From Bartonella sp. B1099 (GTDB lineage: Bacteria > Pseudomonadota > Alphaproteobacteria > Rhizobiales > Rhizobiaceae), in assembly GCF_944801835.1 (NCBI RefSeq), contig NZ_CALYLN010000002.1:310001-374000 (forward strand): 64,000 nt of DNA, read 5' to 3'. Under the pieces are notes generated by a model that was not told the DNA's origin, did no database searches, and was given only the letters and a program-made list of their open reading frames with translations. The position numbers and the translations under genes were made by a program. Shown one piece after another: positions 4,893 to 51,526 of this stretch (its first letter is position 1; each line of letters begins with the position of its first letter).

Positions 4893-5549
4893 AATAGCCT
4901 CCTCATATTGTTACTATGTACCTTATGTATATTCAAAACAATTAGTATTTTGTAAAAAGTTTAAAATTCTACAACTTTATAATTGTAAAGTCAATTTAAC
5001 TGTATTATGAAATATTCAGTTTGGAAAACAAATTGGCCTATACCGGTATAAATCGAAAAACTCTTGTGCTCAGCTAATTTCCATTTTAATTATTAAGTTC
5101 ATTCAAAAAGTATTATTCCTGATTTCAATGGCTATTTCACTTCAATCGCAATAAAAAATATGCAATGTTCTACTTTATCAAGTAATTTAAAAAAGGTTTT
5201 TTTGGGCTGAAATAAAGAATAGTTGTTGCGTAAATCAGCTTCTCAGAAGAAAAATTTTTCAATTATTTTTCTGTTTTAATTGTAATTTTGTGAAATACTA
5301 CTTGCGGTGAAATTACCTTTAAAAGAGGTTCTACTCGACGCCAAAATACAAACTTTTATTTCTTATTAAAGATACAATCATATTGATTTATAATGATAAT
5401 CTAGCGTTATTCATATTGAATTAGACCCTCGAATAACGCAAGATTCTCTCATTCCAAACCTGTTTATGTTGAATCAATCAAAACCACTCGCTTGCACATA
5501 ACAAGCGGGATGAGTGTGTGGATCAAATTTGTATAAGAAAGAACTAAAA
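4893..5549. other. AT-rich intergenic stretch, no gene seen
   Basis: About 650 bases separate the radical SAM cluster from the integrase remnant. Short open frames here have no recognisable content. The last 90 bases (from about 5460) resemble the stretch before the second integrase remnant at about 12.1 kb, including a shared AATCAATCAAAACCA, so they probably belong to the original integrase upstream region. Confidence 0.5.
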
Positions 5550-6109
5550 ATGGTTCTTATGAATCGTCTTAAGTGCCAAGGGCTGTCGCAACATTGGGGG
5601 CTGGCGAATAGTGTGATGGTGCCGGCTTATTACTTCATAAGCGTAAAGATGGAGGTGCTCAATGGATTTACGGTATACTCTTCACGGGCGCCGTCATGAA
5701 ATGGGCTTGGGAGCGTTGCGAGATGTTTCTTTAAAACAAGCCCGTGAATGTGCAAATCAATGGCATTCTGTTCTAGGTGAGGGGCGTGACCCCATTAAAG
5801 AACGCAATAAACAAAAGCGTGAGGCAATAAGTAATCTTCATTATTTAAAATGATATTGCTTTAGATACTTTTGAAAGCCGTAAAGCTGAATTAAAAGGAG
5901 ATGGTAAGGATGAAAGTTGGTTTCTACCCTTAAAACTCCATATTCTCCCTAAATTGGGCTGCCTGCCCGTTTCTGAGATTACCCAAACAGAGATACGCAA
6001 TACCCTCGCTCCTATTTGGCATATAAAAGCTGATACAGCCCGTAAAGCACTGAACCGTCTTAATATATGTCTCAAACATGCGGCTGCCAAGCCATGCACC
6101 ATGAAATAA
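5550..6109 (+). pseudogene. P4-type tyrosine integrase, N-terminal part, frameshifted
   Basis: Starting near the ATG at 5550, successive frames give an integrase head (MNRLKCQGLS), then KRKDGGAQWIY, then YTLHGRRHEMGLGALRDVSL and KQARECANQW, the arm-binding (DUF4102-like) domain. A further shift near 5850 leads to DTFESRKAELKGDGKDESW and EITQTEIRNTLAPIWHIK, the core-binding domain, ending in LNRLNICLKHAAA. At least three frameshifts are present. The catalytic Arg-His-Tyr domain is missing: sequence changes abruptly near 6090 into a DUF3987-like tail, which suggests a deletion joint. Related decayed heads occur at about 12.1-12.4 kb and 35.7-35.85 kb. Confidence 0.8.
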
Positions 6110-6789
6110 ACGATGATGGTTTATTGCAACGGTTTCAAATGCTGGTCTTTCCCGATGAACGAAAAAAGCGTGACTGGGTTGATAGATCTCCCAATCAAAA
6201 GGCATGGGAAAACTATCAAGAGGTCTTTTGTTCTCTTTATGATAAACCTTTAGGATCACCAAAACACCCCATGACCATACGCTTTTCTGCTGATGCTCAA
6301 GAGATGTTTCGTGAATGGTGGGAAAATTTTCAAAAAACAATCAAAGGGGGGAATTTCTCTACAAGTTTACAATCATATCTTTTGAAAATGAATAAAACCA
6401 TACCAACCCTTGCGTTGATTTTTGAACTGTGTGAAGGTGGGCGTTTTGAAATCAATAGAAATGCCCTTGAGAGAGCCTTGTATTGGGAAAAATATCTGAT
6501 AAGTCACGCAAAACGTCTTTATGCGGCGGGGGATACATTAACAGCAGAGCGTGCAAAATTAATTGTCGAACGCTGTGATTGTTTACCCGATGTTTTTACG
6601 GCAAGGGATATCTATAGACGATGTTGGAGTTTTTTAAAAGACAAAGAAGCTGTCACGCAAGCTTTAGAACTTTTATGCCGTTGCAACTATATTCGTGCAA
6701 TATCTGAAAACAATAGCTCTAAAAGCGGTCGACCTACAATACGCTATGAATGGAATCCTTTAATGAAAAGTGATAAGATATCACAATAG
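6097..6789 (+). pseudogene. C-terminal part of a DUF3987-like island/phage protein
   Basis: From about 6097 the frame reads HEINDDGLLQRFQMLVFPDE and continues for about 230 residues to a stop at 6789, including RDIYRRCWSFLKDKEAVTQA and a C-terminal winged-helix-like stretch. This matches my memory of DUF3987 proteins, primase/helicase-like products of integrative elements next to P4-type integrases. The N-terminal ATPase part is missing. The first codons (from 6067) are integrase sequence read in another frame, so the start is artificial. The C-terminal part is intact, so a truncated product could be made, but no promoter or good ribosome binding site is evident. Confidence 0.6.
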
Positions 6790-6884
6790 GCAATCTGAAA
6801 ATATTATAAAACACTAAACTTTATAACCTTTATTTGTGTCATAAACCTTAAAAGTCTTTTTATCTCTTAATTTCGAGGATTTTG

Positions 6885-7078
6885 AAGGTTTTGAAGGTTC
6901 CTTTTACCCCTCCCTTTATATATTTTTTTCAATAAAAAATAAAAGTTATTATATTTCAATGTGTTATTTTTTATCAAGTTTTAAAATAACAACCTATAGT
7001 GATATTATGAAGCTATAGATACAATTAATAATATATTTTGAAGGTATTTTGAGAGTGTTAGAAATCTTCAAAACCTAT
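6885..7078 (+). repeat. left arm of a ~195-bp imperfect inverted repeat
   Basis: This stretch is the reverse complement, with scattered mismatches and small indels, of 7921-8115. The best-matched block includes ACAACCTATAGTGATATTAT and ATATATTTTGAAGGTATTTT. The arms enclose about 840 bases without a gene. The sequence is extremely AT-rich and noncoding on both strands. It lies immediately after the DUF3987 remnant. Confidence 0.8.
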
Positions 7079-7920
7079 CTATTAAAGTGTCTCATAAAAC
7101 CTATCAAAATAATCATTCTGATTTCTTAAAGTACATACTTCATTTGTCTTGATTAACACGTCAAACGATAAGCAAATTTCACTATTTTGCTGATCTTATC
7201 TCTCTTATAAGCTGTTGATAAGAATTCTTTAAGAACCTCTTTGAAAAAAACTATAGGCTTTTTTCCCATTTTTATTGTCGTTCTTAAAGTGAATTAGGAC
7301 ATCTATCAAAACATTTATTTTAACGCTTTAATATATTTTAAAAACATATCGTATTAATCACATTTAACGATTGGAATGAACAAACAATAGTCCTATGTGA
7401 ATATGATATGTATAAAAAAATAAATTACCTTTTTGAAATTATTGGTGTTATTATAATTATAACAGCATTTATTTTTACGTGTACGCTATTATTAACTCCC
7501 GTGTAGATTAAGCGTTTTTCTGCATTTTTATCTATATTCATTCAAAACGTATTTAATAAGCTTCATTTCAATTCTTTTAAAGAGAATTAATGAGTATAGA
7601 AGTTAGAGAAACTGAATAGACTTATGAGGTTTTACATATCTCTCAAGGGGCATAGAATATAGCTATTAATCTATACCTCCTTTATTAAGCTGATTACCTA
7701 CAATCTTAAAAGAAGTGTTTATATGCGTTATCTAAAAAGAGAACATTTGCACTTTTAAACACTCTTATTTGGATTGCTTTAAGACTTGTAAGAAATCTCA
7801 TCTTAAATAGAATACGCTTCTTTTGGATTGGCTTTAAGAGATTATACCGAAATCTCAAATGATAGCTTTATTGTTTTCAAAAGCTTTGTTTAAAGAGAGA
7901 TTTGTATATTCATTTTGCTA
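7079..7920. other. noncoding spacer between inverted-repeat arms
   Basis: About 840 very AT-rich bases with no frame longer than a few dozen codons and no recognisable protein or RNA. A weak direct repeat lies inside it (listed separately). Nothing marks it as a transposon: no transposase and no clean target duplication is visible at the arm ends. Confidence 0.5.
7764..7857 (+). repeat. short imperfect direct repeat
   Basis: Two copies of a roughly 37-41-base unit, at 7764-7800 and 7817-7857, share TTTGGATTG, CTTTAAGA and GAAATCTCA in the same order. A weaker third similarity (TCTTTTGAAATGCTTTAAA) occurs at about 8168-8186. The spacing is irregular and there is no CRISPR-like array. Confidence 0.35.
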
Positions 7921-11690: not shown

Positions 11691-12099
11691 GATTTTACAA
11701 CATGCCTCTCCAAAGAGCATGCTTTGCGGCGTATTTTTAATATTCTCGAGTTCTTACAATGCCTCAGATAAGCTATTTGAAAGCATCATAAACACAACAG
11801 CAGTTTTAGTTGCAATAGCTTAGAAGGGGTAAAATTCTTTCGACACACTTCAACTGCTTCTTTAAAAAAATATTGTTTACCTTCTGATCTATCGTCTATT
11901 TTTTTGATTCTTTTTTCTCTATTAAAGGAACACCTGTTGTCAAAATAATTAGAGACATAATAACAACCTCTTCAATACGTAAAGCACTTGCTTTTTAGAG
12001 TAGTATTTTAAGCTTACCAATGACAGGTCATCATGAAATATTCAAAAGAGTAAGAAATCCGAATTTTTTAAAGCTCTCTCATTTCAAACTTCTCCCATA

Positions 12100-12420
12100 T
12101 TAAATCAATCAAAACCATCCCTCTTGCACGTCACAAAGAAGATTGCCATGTGGATAAAAATTATACAAAAAAAGCACTAAAATACCTATAATGATCTAAA
12201 AAGCTAAGATTTATCGCAATATTGGCGGCTAACAAATGGGCAAAATGTACGATGTGCTAGCTTATTCTTTCATCGACGTAGAAGATGATGGTGCTTAATG
12301 AATTCAGCCATTATATCATTCACGAGCGCCGGCGTGAAATGGGGCTTTTGAGAGCTCTAAAGGCTATTTCTTTAAAACAAGCGCATAAATATATACAATA
12401 CAATAGCACTCTATTCTTTG
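12100..12420 (+). pseudogene. second decayed integrase N-terminal region
   Basis: This stretch aligns by eye with 5480-5770: shared blocks include AATCAATCAAAACCA, GTGTGGAT, GCTTATT, CACGAGCGCCGGCGTGAAAT and TTTCTTTAAAACAAGC. Translation in patches gives the ERRREMGL and ISLKQA parts of the arm-binding domain, but frames are broken repeatedly. It points toward the tRNA-Arg gene at 13112, the usual place for such an integrase. The catalytic half is not recognisable. Confidence 0.65.
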
Positions 12421-13619: not shown

Positions 13620-13696
13620 TGGTCGGAGCGATAGGATTCGAACCTACGACCCCCTGATCCCAAATCAGGTGCGCTACCAGGCTGCGCTACGCTCCG
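13620..13696 (-). tRNA. tRNA-Pro (anticodon TGG)
   Basis: The minus strand gives a full cloverleaf: acceptor CGGAGCG with CGCTCCG, D arm GCGCAGCCTGGTAGCGC, anticodon arm CCTGA-TTTGGGA-TCAGG, T arm GTAGG-TTCGAAT-CCTAT, then A and an encoded CCA. Total 77 bases. Same strand as the upstream hdaA genes and the complex I subunit. Confidence 0.97.
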
Positions 13697-31974: not shown

Positions 31975-32503
31975 GTATGCTTACGCGCAAGATTAATAAC
32001 ATCTCTCTTGAAGAAGAAAGATAGGCCTTTCACACAAAACAGAATACCTCCCAATAGGACACTTTTGTGTTAAACATTCACATATTTGTTTTAAAGATAA
32101 TACACTTCTCAAAACATCAAATCATTGCACGATAGCCCTTATGCATGATATAAAACATTCTATCATCCCCACGCTTATAAAGCGTGTAAACTTGTCACCT
32201 TTATATTTCTATCCCCAATGTTACAACAGCTCTTGGGACTTGAAACAGCTCATAAAAGAAATTTTTAATTCTTTTCTTTATAAATTTCTATCTACAATAC
32301 TAATCCACTTGTGATGTACAACAAGCAGATCATTTTGATTGTTTCAACATGAAGAAGATTGAAATAAGAAAAATTATGGATATTAGAGACTCTTATTTAA
32401 CATAAGAATGATATTATTATAAATCAATACCTTATCATATAATAAAAACCCATAAGCATTTCTTTTACACTTTTATAGGCCTGAAATAAAAACGTTCTAT
32501 TAT
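31975..32503. other. gap between MFS pump and parC, nothing seen
   Basis: AT-rich, with stop codons frequent in all frames. The two genes converge here. No tRNA, repeat or clear stem with T-run was recognised. Confidence 0.5.
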
Positions 32504-34753
32504 TTAATTGGTAAATTTTCCTGATTTGGGAAATCCTTTTGGAACCAGACGCCCGACACCTGCACGTGTTCCCATCCATTCAATGAGATCATCAGCTTGA
32601 CGGTTAAAGATTCGTTCAGCGGTATCTTGCCAACTTAAGCCTTCTGATAAATTAAAGGTCTTGGCATCAACAATACCACCCTCTTTGTAACGCTGTAAAC
32701 GAACCCCTTTACCACGATTCATTTCTGGTATTTGTTCAATAGAAAAAATAAGCATTTTGCGGTTTTCACCAACCACGGCAACATGATCACCATTGACTGG
32801 AACACAAAGCTTTACCTTATCAGGAGATTTCACATTCATCACCTGCTTTCCTTTTCGTGTATTGGCAATCACTTCTGCAGCAGGAACGATAAAGCCATTG
32901 CCCTGAGATGAAACCAGGAGCAATTTTTCTTCTGCATGATGCACAAAAGCTGTAAGAACATCATGCTCATCATCCATATCAACTAAAAGACGAATGGGCT
33001 CACCCTGTCCTCGTCCTCCAGGCAAACTATTTGCACCAAATGCGAAAAACTTTCCACCATTACTTATTAGCACAATCTTGTCGGTCGTAAATGCCGGAAA
33101 TGCCAACTTCAAACTATCTCCTTCTTTAAAAGAAAGCGCTTTGTAATCGTGCAAATGCCCCTTCAAAGCACGCACCCACCCTTTTTCAGAAATAACAACA
33201 GTCACCGGTTCTTTTTCGATCATTGCTTGTTGAATATCATCAAGATCATGTCTTGGTGCTTCTTCAAATGTCGTACGCCTTTTCCCTAAGAGCGTTTCAG
33301 GACCAAAAGTGTTGCGAACTTTTTTAATTTCTTCTGAAATTATTTTCCATTGTTTTATAGGAGAGGCTAACAAATTCTGTAGTTTTTCTTTTTCAGCTTT
33401 AAGCGTTTCAAATTCCTTACGAATTTCAAATTCTTCAAGCTTACGTAAAGAACGCAAGCGCATATTAAGAATAGCTTCAGCTTGATTTTCTGTTAATTCA
33501 AAACGATTAATCAGCTTTTTTTTCGGTTCATCCTCTTCACGAATAATCTGTATGACCTCATCGAGATTCAAATAGGCAATAAGATACCCATGAAGAATTT
33601 CCAATCTGCTATCAATTTGATCAAGCCGATAGTGAGAACGTCGAATAAGCACTTCTTGACGATGTTCAAGCCATTGTTGCAAACTTTCTCGCAGCGAGAG
33701 AACATTGGGTCTTTTTCCCAAAGATAAAACATTAAGATTAAGAGGAAATCTGACTTCAAAATCAGTTAATTTAAAAAGGGATTCCATAAGAAGTTCAGGA
33801 TCAACCGACCGGTTTTTAGGAACAAGCACAATGCGGATATCTTCTGCTGATTCATCTTGAATATCCTCAAGCATTGGTAAGCGCCGCGCAAGCAACAATT
33901 CCGCAGTTTTTTCAATAAGGCGTGACTTTTGAACTTGATAGGGAATTTCGGTCACAACAATCACATAAGAACCACGGCTACCATTTTCCTGATGCCAACG
34001 TGAACGTAATCGAAAAAAACCCCGCCCTATACGATAAGATTCCTCAATACTTTTTTTAGGCTCAACCAAAATGCCACCGGTTGGGAAATCAGGTCCCAGC
34101 ACAAATTGATTTAAATCCTCATCACGCGTATCAGGATGTGCAATCAAATGCAGTGCCGCATCACAGAGCTCAGCAACATTGTGGGGAGGAATAGATGTTG
34201 CCATACCAACAGCAATACCTGAAGAACCATTAGCTAAAAGATTAGGAAAAGCACCTGGTAGAACAACAGGCTCTTCATCTTCTTCATTATAGGTCAAACG
34301 AAAATCAATAGCATTTTCATTAATTCCCTCAAGCAATAATGCAGCTACTTCAGTCATGCGAGCTTCCGTATAACGCATAGCTGCAGCATTATCACCATCA
34401 ATATTACCAAAATTTCCTTGTCCATCAACCAACGGATAACGAACCGCAAAACTTTGAGCCAAACGCACCAAAGCATCATAAATAGAGGCATCTCCATGAG
34501 GATGAAATTTTCCCATGACATCACCAACAATCCGCGCACATTTCGCATAAGATTGTCCAGGGTTTAGTTTGAGAAGACGCATTGCATGAACAATCCGACG
34601 ATGGACAGGTTTCAATCCATCACGCACATCAGGCAATGCACGATGCGTAATCGTAGAAAGTGCATAAGCCAAATAGCGTTCCTGTAAAGCAAAACGTAAC
34701 TCTATTGGCTCAATATGTTCTTTATCAAAAGGTAAATTCATTTTATCAAACAT
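32504..34753 (-). CDS. parC: DNA topoisomerase IV subunit A
   Basis: 749 residues. The winged-helix/tower domain carries catalytic Tyr128 in [10 protein letters not shown]. The quinolone-determining region is [17 protein letters not shown] (84-100): the position equivalent to E. coli Ser80 is Ala89 and that of Glu84 is Asp93. A coiled coil lies at about 370-480 and a C-terminal beta-propeller-like domain at about 500-740, which favours ParC over GyrA because no GyrA box (QRRGGKG) is present. Decatenates daughter chromosomes with ParE. Monocistronic by spacing. Confidence 0.93.
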
Positions 34754-35940
34754 AATATTAGAACAAAAACTCCCACAATAATAAGAAATTATTGTGTAGG
34801 ATTTATTTAATGAAAACTTTTATGAGTAAACTTTTTTATTAAAAGTCAACGACATAAAAATAAACGTTGTGATTAGAACATGAACAGAAAATTATATCAA
34901 TTTGAAAAATTTATACATGTTCTTCTCTCTTGTTCTAAACAATATATGAAAATATTTAATACATTTTCGAAAACTTCTTTCAATATCCTCTTTAAGGGGT
35001 AAAAAAACAAAATAAACTAAAAGAAGTAGAAAATATTTTCATTGTTAAGGAAAGCGATAAGCATTTTTAAATAAATAAAAATCTCAAAAACAACGCTATT
35101 ATTAATTGATACAGCTTTAAGCAAACTGGAGTCATGATAACGTTTCAAAACGACGTAAATAAATTTTTATAGTCTTTCCAACAACAACAATTTCCTTCCA
35201 AATATATTTTGAATGCAGATTATTCTAGACAAAAATCTTATTGAAAGCTTTGCCAAATCCGACAATATAATTTGACGGCTCACAAAGAGTCATTTCATCC
35301 TTTTAGGAATGAAAAAAGCACCTTTCAAACATCATCTTTTAGTATAAAAGTAAGTTGTATAACAACTTCATCCCGTTTCTCTATGAAAACTTAAAAAATA
35401 TTTAAAGCTTATAGAGTTCCCCAAGGTTAAGTCCATAGGAAGCAAAAATGCATTATTTTCATAAACGCGAAGAGAGATAATTATCTTTTACAATGTCGTA
35501 AGAACTTCAATAAAATATAAATAACATATTGATATATAAAGATAATTTATTCATTTACAACTTAAATAAAGATCCCAAGTATTCTAAAGTTTTCTCATTT
35601 CCGATTTATTCATGATAAATTACTCACAATCATTTTTCTGCTTATCACAAAGGTAAGAGCGACTATCTAAGAAAGGAAAATGACAGCTTATTCTTTATTC
35701 AACAAAGATGGCAATAGTCTCATAGCACTCATGAGGTTTTAAGTTATATCCTTCATGAGTGAGCATCGTAGCATGAGATCGACTGCATTGAGAGATATTT
35801 CTTTAAAAACAATGCCTCTGGAAGGATTAATACAATAGCATTCTTCACCTCTCTAAGTCCATAAACAACAGATACGCTCTTGAGAGACATCAAAAACTTC
35901 ACACTACGGAGAAAGAGACGACAACAATCCATAAATTACT
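34754..35940. other. 1.2-kb gap holding a decayed integrase trace
   Basis: No intact gene. Most of it is AT-rich with short frames. The segment at about 35690-35850 resembles the integrase heads elsewhere in the window and is listed separately. The rest may be the remainder of the same lost element. Confidence 0.5.
35690..35850 (+). pseudogene. third, strongly decayed integrase N-terminal region
   Basis: Shared blocks with 5620-5780 and 12260-12420 in the same order: GCTTATTCTTTATT, AAAGATGG, TTATATCCTTCATGAG, GCATTGAGAGATATTTCTTT followed by AAAAAC, and AATACAATAGCATTCTTC. The last block matches the second copy (AATACAATAGCACTCTATTC) better than the first. All frames are broken. Assignment is by eye only. 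Confidence 0.5.
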
Positions 35941-51125: not shown

Positions 51126-51526
51126 TGATAGAAAAAAAACTTTGATAAAAAATAAAAATACTTCCCATGCAAATATACTTTTCTTTCTTGGAATCACTCA
51201 TAAATGATTTAACACCTCCCTACGCCATTTATGCTTCATGAAAGTATAACAAACCAATAGCAGCATCTTTTCTCTCGATCTGGATTACTCTTGCATTAAA
51301 GGAGGAGAAGCATAATGCGTTCTTTTGCCCCTTATCTTCATAGATCTGATCCATTTTTTGATCGCTTAAGAGAATATTTTTTATTCTGTCATTAAGGATT
51401 TGGAATGAAAAATTCTATCTTTGATATTCTCATTCAACAGAAAAAATGAGAAAACAAACTATCATTATAAATCAATTTGTTATATTTTGATTATTCTCCT
51501 AAAATTCAGAAATATACAATCTATTT
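51126..51526. other. gap between recG and glmS
   Basis: 400 bases between convergent genes. Apart from the short frame at 51315-51395, which has a strong ribosome binding site, no gene or clear terminator is visible. Confidence 0.4.
51315..51395 (+). CDS. possible 26-residue small protein or gene remnant
   Basis: ATG at 51315 is preceded by AAAGGAGGAGAAGCATA, an excellent ribosome binding site at good spacing. The frame reads MRSFAPYLHRSDPFFDRLRE and stops at 51395. The start faintly recalls small heat-shock proteins (MRxx...PLYRSxxGFDRL), so it may be the stump of a lost Hsp20 gene. It could also be a genuine short peptide. Confidence 0.25.
   Translation: MRSFAPYLHRSDPFFDRLREYFLFCH

Follow-up and report, generated by a model that had tools for sequence, protein, structure and literature searches.

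Short repeats representing the left end of an integrase element in intergenic gaps of Bartonella genomes, with a decayed copy between parC and aspS

Tyrosine integrases are regarded as precise two-ended enzymes. Low-specificity integrases of the Tn916 type use many AT-rich targets, with a few variable bases adjoining a conserved terminus, and miniature inverted-repeat transposable elements (MITEs) and bacterial short interspersed repeats are short, non-coding, multicopy and intergenic and derive from a larger mobile element. The present analysis concerns a decayed integrase trace between parC and aspS, termed copy 3, in a stretch of 64,000 nucleotides of Bartonella sp. B1099 (contig NZ_CALYLN010000002.1, positions 310,001 to 374,000; the whole stretch is referred to as the window). 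Judged from its sequence, this trace is genuine and is one copy of a large family, the members of which appear as short repeats of an integrase element's left end and lie in intergenic gaps of some Bartonella genomes. It is on balance probable that copy 3 is an old insertion of such a short interspersed repeat, consisting of the left end of the element only and inserted short.

Another multicopy family is already described for the genus. In the available part of PMC5387305, the Brt RNA family is intergenic and about 200 nt long, with more copies in rodent species; its members are strongly folded and lie in front of XRE-type genes, and the copy number ranges from 9 in B. henselae to 34 in B. 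tribocorum.

Copy 3 in the parC-aspS gap

Copy 3 consists of the integrase leader, i.e. the sequence preceding the integrase gene, and of a decayed head of that gene, and is situated in a 1.2-kb gap from parC (32504-34753, minus strand) to aspS (from 35941, minus strand). The aspS C-terminus has its top match among named genomes in B. elizabethae (98%), the window's own record possibly being excluded from that comparison. The leader was searched for with R1, a sequence-only model built from 13 copies of this genome, including copy 1 of the window and excluding copies 2-5. R1 matched copy 3 at 35522-35678 with E=2.1e-14 in the search of the window and with E=8.7e-13 in the search of the whole genome. 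An nhmmer profile of leader and integrase built from 8 full-length copies matched copy 3 with E=1e-12. By blastn against loci of its own genome the leader reached a best E of 1.5e-14, and the head block at 35735-35844 was matched independently with E down to 2.3e-6. The relationship of the decayed segment before aspS to integrase heads, which had been proposed in an earlier note on this DNA, is therefore well above chance, and the alignment of the copies as DNA that was suggested there as a check gave significant similarity despite the AT-richness (GC content of copy 3, 0.25). The trace had been placed at 35690-35850, where it is real, and the unit starts about 170 bp further left.

The second check suggested in that note, a profile search with the DUF4102/Arm domain (PF13356), gave matches at 23 genomic places (E<=10), copy 3 not being among them. 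Searches by tblastn with integrase proteins gave only 14-residue matches at copy 3 (35767-35808, E ~9.7-9.8), and copy 3 itself does not hold a three-domain integrase. Other parts of the element, as would be found at the site of a decayed prophage remnant, were not recognised between the flanks of the gap. No match was obtained in a search of phage records with the entire parC-aspS gap, and Rfam at gathering scores yielded two tRNAs and nothing else in the window. As had been noted, no tRNA is nearby, the closest of the two ARAGORN tRNAs in the window being located at 13620-13696.

Left ends, right ends and parent elements

A leader of up to ~170 bp with a sharp left edge was found upstream of the integrase gene in 14 of 20 integrase-head loci, and in intact copies the integrase reading frame follows it. 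The left edges of the units are constant across copies. The left terminus is AYAANAYATTGATTTATAATGATAAT and is preceded by AT-rich host sequence (83 of 95 copies); due to the fact that these 83 copies were retained for core resemblance and 12 were dropped, the core letters are partly circular, and the eight preceding bases are not affected by this selection.

In the host genome, R1 detected the leader at no fewer than 148 places at E<=1e-3 and at no fewer than 134 places at 1e-8, numbers which are a floor because 150 of 2070 candidates were scored. The integrase 3′ end was found at 18 places (all 114 candidates scored) and the right end of the element, searched for with model R3, at 15 places at least (150 of 1079 candidates scored), so that left ends outnumber the other parts of the element eight- to tenfold. 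With a mean column identity of 94% vs 89% for the leader, the integrase 3′ end is the better conserved part. Two other species yielded 102 leaders vs 10 integrase 3′ ends and 131 vs 6, respectively (cut-offs 1e-12 vs 1e-8), and a third other genome 20 vs 1 (both at 1e-8). Three further Bartonella genomes had no R1 match at E<=1e-8, with 150 candidates scored in each out of 939-1493. No orientation bias of the units was detected along contig C1 (single-split test, p=0.27, 90 matches).

Unlike the left end, the right ends are ragged (19 junctions read), and terminal inverted repeats are absent as a rule. Of 87 copies, 70 have their right end between model positions 158 and 445, the latter being near the end of the Arm domain, and 17 extend further. 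The 87 copies comprise 22 of the 30 best ones (the 8 full-length ones being the profile seeds), together with 60 other stretches and the five copies of the window; L078 is window copy 1 and was counted twice, L081/L085 is a segmental duplicate and L075/L121 are overlapping reads of one neighbour copy. Among 30 high-scoring copies of two other species, 18 stop by position 480, 8 are complete over the length fetched and 4 are intermediate. One fixed right end at model position 434 was considered and rejected, the excess at this position being real and not general. The locus L139 is an exception to the ragged ends, as it holds an inverted pair of ~254 bp joined tail to tail with left termini at both ends. 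Tail-to-tail pairs of units in opposite orientation were observed at L139, L087/L156, L110 and L080 and could be MITE-like derivatives. At L199, a parC flank in another species, the integrase head is split at model positions 421-425 by ~304 bp with an overlap of 5 positions; the insert partly matches L022 and L202 and might represent another small mobile repeat. An insert of this type was discarded as the source of the right ends, being a single occurrence that is not general.

Full-length elements measure ~13-16 kb where the right end could be read, and as repeats of this size they carry the integrase at the left end and the core again, in direct orientation, at the right end. CAAnATATTGAYTTTAT-like cores are present left and right in full elements, and the short units were seen with the left core only. 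Arm-DNA-bind_3, Phage_int_M and Phage_integrase were all present in the integrases scanned (n=3). The cargo of one element includes a DUF7146 primase-like gene, a DUF3987 helicase-like gene and a large Type ISP restriction-modification protein; the five cargo open reading frames scanned corresponded to primase- and helicase-like proteins, the Type ISP restriction enzyme and two repeat proteins, fha not being among them.

Additional observations were made on the parent elements. The full-length element at L258 (2-4603; C4 of the own genome) encodes a Type ISP protein (Type_ISP_C at E=5e-110, ResIII, N6_Mtase) with primase- and helicase-like genes upstream, and its gene content resembles that of a satellite-type island carrying a defence gene. 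The full-length elements L032 (C1:6117) and L033 (C1:859796) are 99.5% identical over 10.8 kb, and a 17-bp deletion in the integrase head is common to both and L012; this variant seems to have spread. Moreover, the leaders look mosaic in their alignment, with the first part of L013 being like L001 and the last part like L014, which suggests recombination between copies.

Orthologous sites and origin of the units

Orthologous loci were compared over ~1.5 kb on each side of the unit. At the site of L097 one and the same short plus-strand unit is present in 6 of 30 loci (own included), 6 of 30 loci are empty with both flanks joined, 3 of 30 carry minus-strand units within ~50 bp, and the left flank is unrecognisable in the other 15. 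At the site of L084, for which 14 of 25 loci were tabulated, the short unit of the own genome is ~90% identical to a full copy, and the flanks are directly adjacent in the nearest relative drawn. At two sites, empty sites in sister species thus described abut short units, and host bases are not visibly missing there. At the right junction 3-4 bases are common to unit and host, namely TTT at L084 and GTTA at L171/L173, and no clear target site duplication was seen at the junctions of L097, L171/L173 and L084. In the relative L379, the empty site corresponding to L084 (C1 of the own genome, near 757,764) resembles a terminator hairpin, CCTTTTCTTT-AAA-AAAGAAGG, and the L084 unit may thus have entered a transcription terminator.

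In the gap of copy 3, the profile recognised a unit in 14 of the 30 gaps, the own one among them, two more align partly, and L057, L061 and L067 are empty-like within ~20-40 bp. The gap unit of L054, L304 and L306 scores far better and has a different position in the gap, and it is therefore probably a separate insertion. Out of 80 named loci 26 were examined, all of them from Bartonella, with the Bartonella loci of bees and metagenomes left out. The copy 3 unit was recognised in 13 of these 26 (one weakly, E=0.008), the carriers including B. elizabethae, B. grahamii, B. tribocorum, B. queenslandensis, B. massiliensis and B. rattimassiliensis; no unit was found in the other 13, e.g. B. vinsonii, B. 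taylorii and B. bacilliformis. Units are common to the members of clades, and most likely copy 3 is an old insertion that was inherited by a clade. Full-length elements were not seen at any of the orthologous sites examined.

A unit would be composed of the terminus AYAANAYATTGATTTATAATGATAAT, the rest of the ~170 bp leader and up to ~270 bp of the integrase gene, and it would have been inserted short by the element's own tyrosine integrase rather than eroded in place. Many AT-rich positions between genes would serve the integrase as targets for joining the left attachment core. After 150-450 nt, a match of a few bases would let the copied or repaired strand return to the target, resulting in a one-ended insertion; the inserted unit would then drift without function. 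One-ended insertion is preferred because the nearest relative drawn has an empty site in the place of a short unit and because of the lack of full-length occupants at the sites examined. As for the cause, we infer one-ended strand transfer or abortive excision. Only as a tentative proposal it is put forward that a tyrosine integrase repeatedly inserts its own left end, with the ragged other end set by microhomology, and in this way produces more than 100 repeats per genome from few parents, similar to truncated copies of retro-elements.

Several points weigh against insertion in the short form. Neither an insertion event nor the movement of a short unit was observed. The microhomology was read at two sites and is possibly due to chance in AT-rich DNA, and ~5 extra bases are located left of the terminus at L084. 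Four of the 70 early-ending copies (L108, L109, L111 and L141) resume in later integrase sequence after a gap and are accordingly internally deleted longer copies, and with the 8 full-length profile seeds counted the early ends amount to 70 of 95. Furthermore, the right ends cluster in comparison with a random-truncation null, with 11 of 79 vs 9 of 345 at model positions 262-280, 10 vs 13 at 362-377 and 9 of 79 vs 8 of 345 at 429-439, and 5 of the 19 junctions read base by base end at 433-434. Site-specific trimming of a resident full element would predict such preferred end points as well, and the lack of full-length occupants refers to loci spanning only ~1.5 kb on each side. Longer units were found in or near the other two gaps of the window in single relatives (L234, model 12-775; L201, model 10-597), both in opposite orientation and as separate insertions.

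Among the alternatives, abortive excision or trimming survives best. Full elements would have been inserted, the right attachment end cut, the DNA chewed back to the leader-bound integrase and the remainder rejoined to the flank. This would account for the constant left end, the ragged right end, the abutting host flank and the preferred end points listed above, and full elements of ~13-16 kb are present in the genome. It is considered possible and rather doubtful, as the orthologous sites examined lack a full-length occupant within ~1.5 kb on each side, the nearest relative drawn is empty at the place where the own genome already has its short L084 unit, and right ends are found about as seldom as intact integrases. 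Ordinary decay, according to which the units are leftovers of full prophage-like elements after random deletion, is disfavoured as unlikely. Copy 1 is clearly such a case, and the 17 copies passing model position 445 together with the four that resume after a gap are in line with it; however, integrase 3′ parts and right ends should then be about as frequent as left ends, contrary to the counts given above, and intact host flanks at the junction would not be expected.

That selection retains the units because they act on neighbouring genes as promoters, terminators or small RNAs is very improbable. The units followed in the window occupy gaps between core genes and persist across species, and the leader has a weak consensus hairpin fold of -7.9 kcal/mol. 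However, leader and head decay alike, with identities of 0.760 vs 0.743 (34 copies, p=0.19), which makes selection on the leader unlikely; its identity drops to 0.64-0.66 in copies 5 and 3, a double change was seen in 1 of 15 predicted pairs when a conserved RNA was looked for, and Rfam gave no match above gathering scores in the window besides the two tRNAs. A leader maintained by selection was therefore rejected as unsupported. Chance similarity in AT-rich intergenic DNA, to which the base composition of the unit might point, is refuted by the match at E=2e-14 to a model built without copy 3, by zero matches at 1e-8 in three other Bartonella genomes (150 candidates scored each) and by the conserved flanks that bound the unit in orthologous gaps.

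Other units of the window and comparison with known systems

The window contains five units, i.e. copies 1, 2 and 3 and two more, copies 4 and 5 (Table 1). Three related copies had been counted in the earlier note, of which the relatedness stands and the number does not, and the proposal that related elements inserted repeatedly was understated in view of five units in the window and the left ends in the genome. That integrase heads persist after loss of their cargo applies to copy 1, in which an internal deletion joins the integrase 5′ part and cargo, so that other element parts are still at the site as in a decayed prophage remnant; the short copies fit this less well. A closest kinship of copies 2 and 3 did not hold, since copy 2 comes 60th out of 86 by identity to copy 3 and 23rd out of 85 by shared non-consensus states, and the two were dropped as sister copies. 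Both share a 12-base string after model position 373, outside the kinship alignment, which may be parallel drift. The R1 leader matches of copies 4 and 5 are located at 32261-32434 and 51315-51482, respectively, on the minus strand; same-strand units were found in the gap of copy 4 in loci L195-L204 and in the gap of copy 5 in 9 of 30 loci.

Table 1. Positions of the left-end units and associated features in the window
Feature	Position	Strand	Basis
Copy 1, leader plus 5′ part of the integrase, from an element with an internal deletion	5377..6088	+	R1 E=1.4e-46; nhmmer model 15-722
Copy 1 element cargo, fused to the broken integrase	6088..7263	+	blastn to full-length elements
Copy 2, decayed short unit, left edge unrecognisable	12037..12417	+	R1 E=8.1e-16; nhmmer model 54-409
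Copy 4, short unit between MFS gene and parC	32025..32436	-	R1 E=7.3e-17; nhmmer model 10-420
Copy 3, short left-end unit (leader and decayed integrase head)	35521..35844	+	R1, nhmmer profile, blastn
Copy 3 left terminus TAACATATTGATATATAAAGATAAT, vs family consensus AYAANAYATTGATTTATAATGATAAT	35522..35546	+	R1 alignment and base counts
Gap sequence between unit and aspS stop, recognisable in many relatives with or without the unit	35851..35940		
Copy 5, heavily decayed unit between the ends of recG and glmS	51290..51482	-	R1 E=1.3e-8; nhmmer model 12-214, E=4e-5

The constant left end, the ragged right end and the eight to ten left ends per other part suggest a frequent side reaction or failed excision, and such a process would affect the spacing of genes in this genus of zoonotic bacteria. 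The number of integrase heads near a gene does not equal the number of former islands. Insertion sites that can be compared are numerous, with empty, short and opposite-orientation states at one locus, and this makes the origin of the units testable in public genomes.

The left-end units resemble MITEs in being short, non-coding, numerous, intergenic and derived from a mobile element. In contrast to MITEs, they are mostly without terminal inverted repeats and have neither a fixed right end nor a fixed length with both ends defined, and their parent has a tyrosine integrase, not a DDE transposase. With Tn916 they have in common the AT-rich targets and the variable bases next to a conserved terminus, but Tn916 moves as a whole circle, whereas here mostly one end is found. 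The fha-repeats or phage-related islands of B. grahamii, as presented in the available part of PMC2697382, are like the parent elements described here in size, copy number and integrase, and left-end fragments are not mentioned in that part. A left-end repeat family is likewise not described in the available parts of PMC3610622 and PMC5387305, and no description of one was found in the literature covered, an earlier one being possible as most subscription papers were outside its scope. Like the Brt family, the left-end units are multicopy and intergenic; they are set apart from it, going by the available part of the Brt description (PMC5387305), by a leader that is weakly folded and precedes integrase heads.
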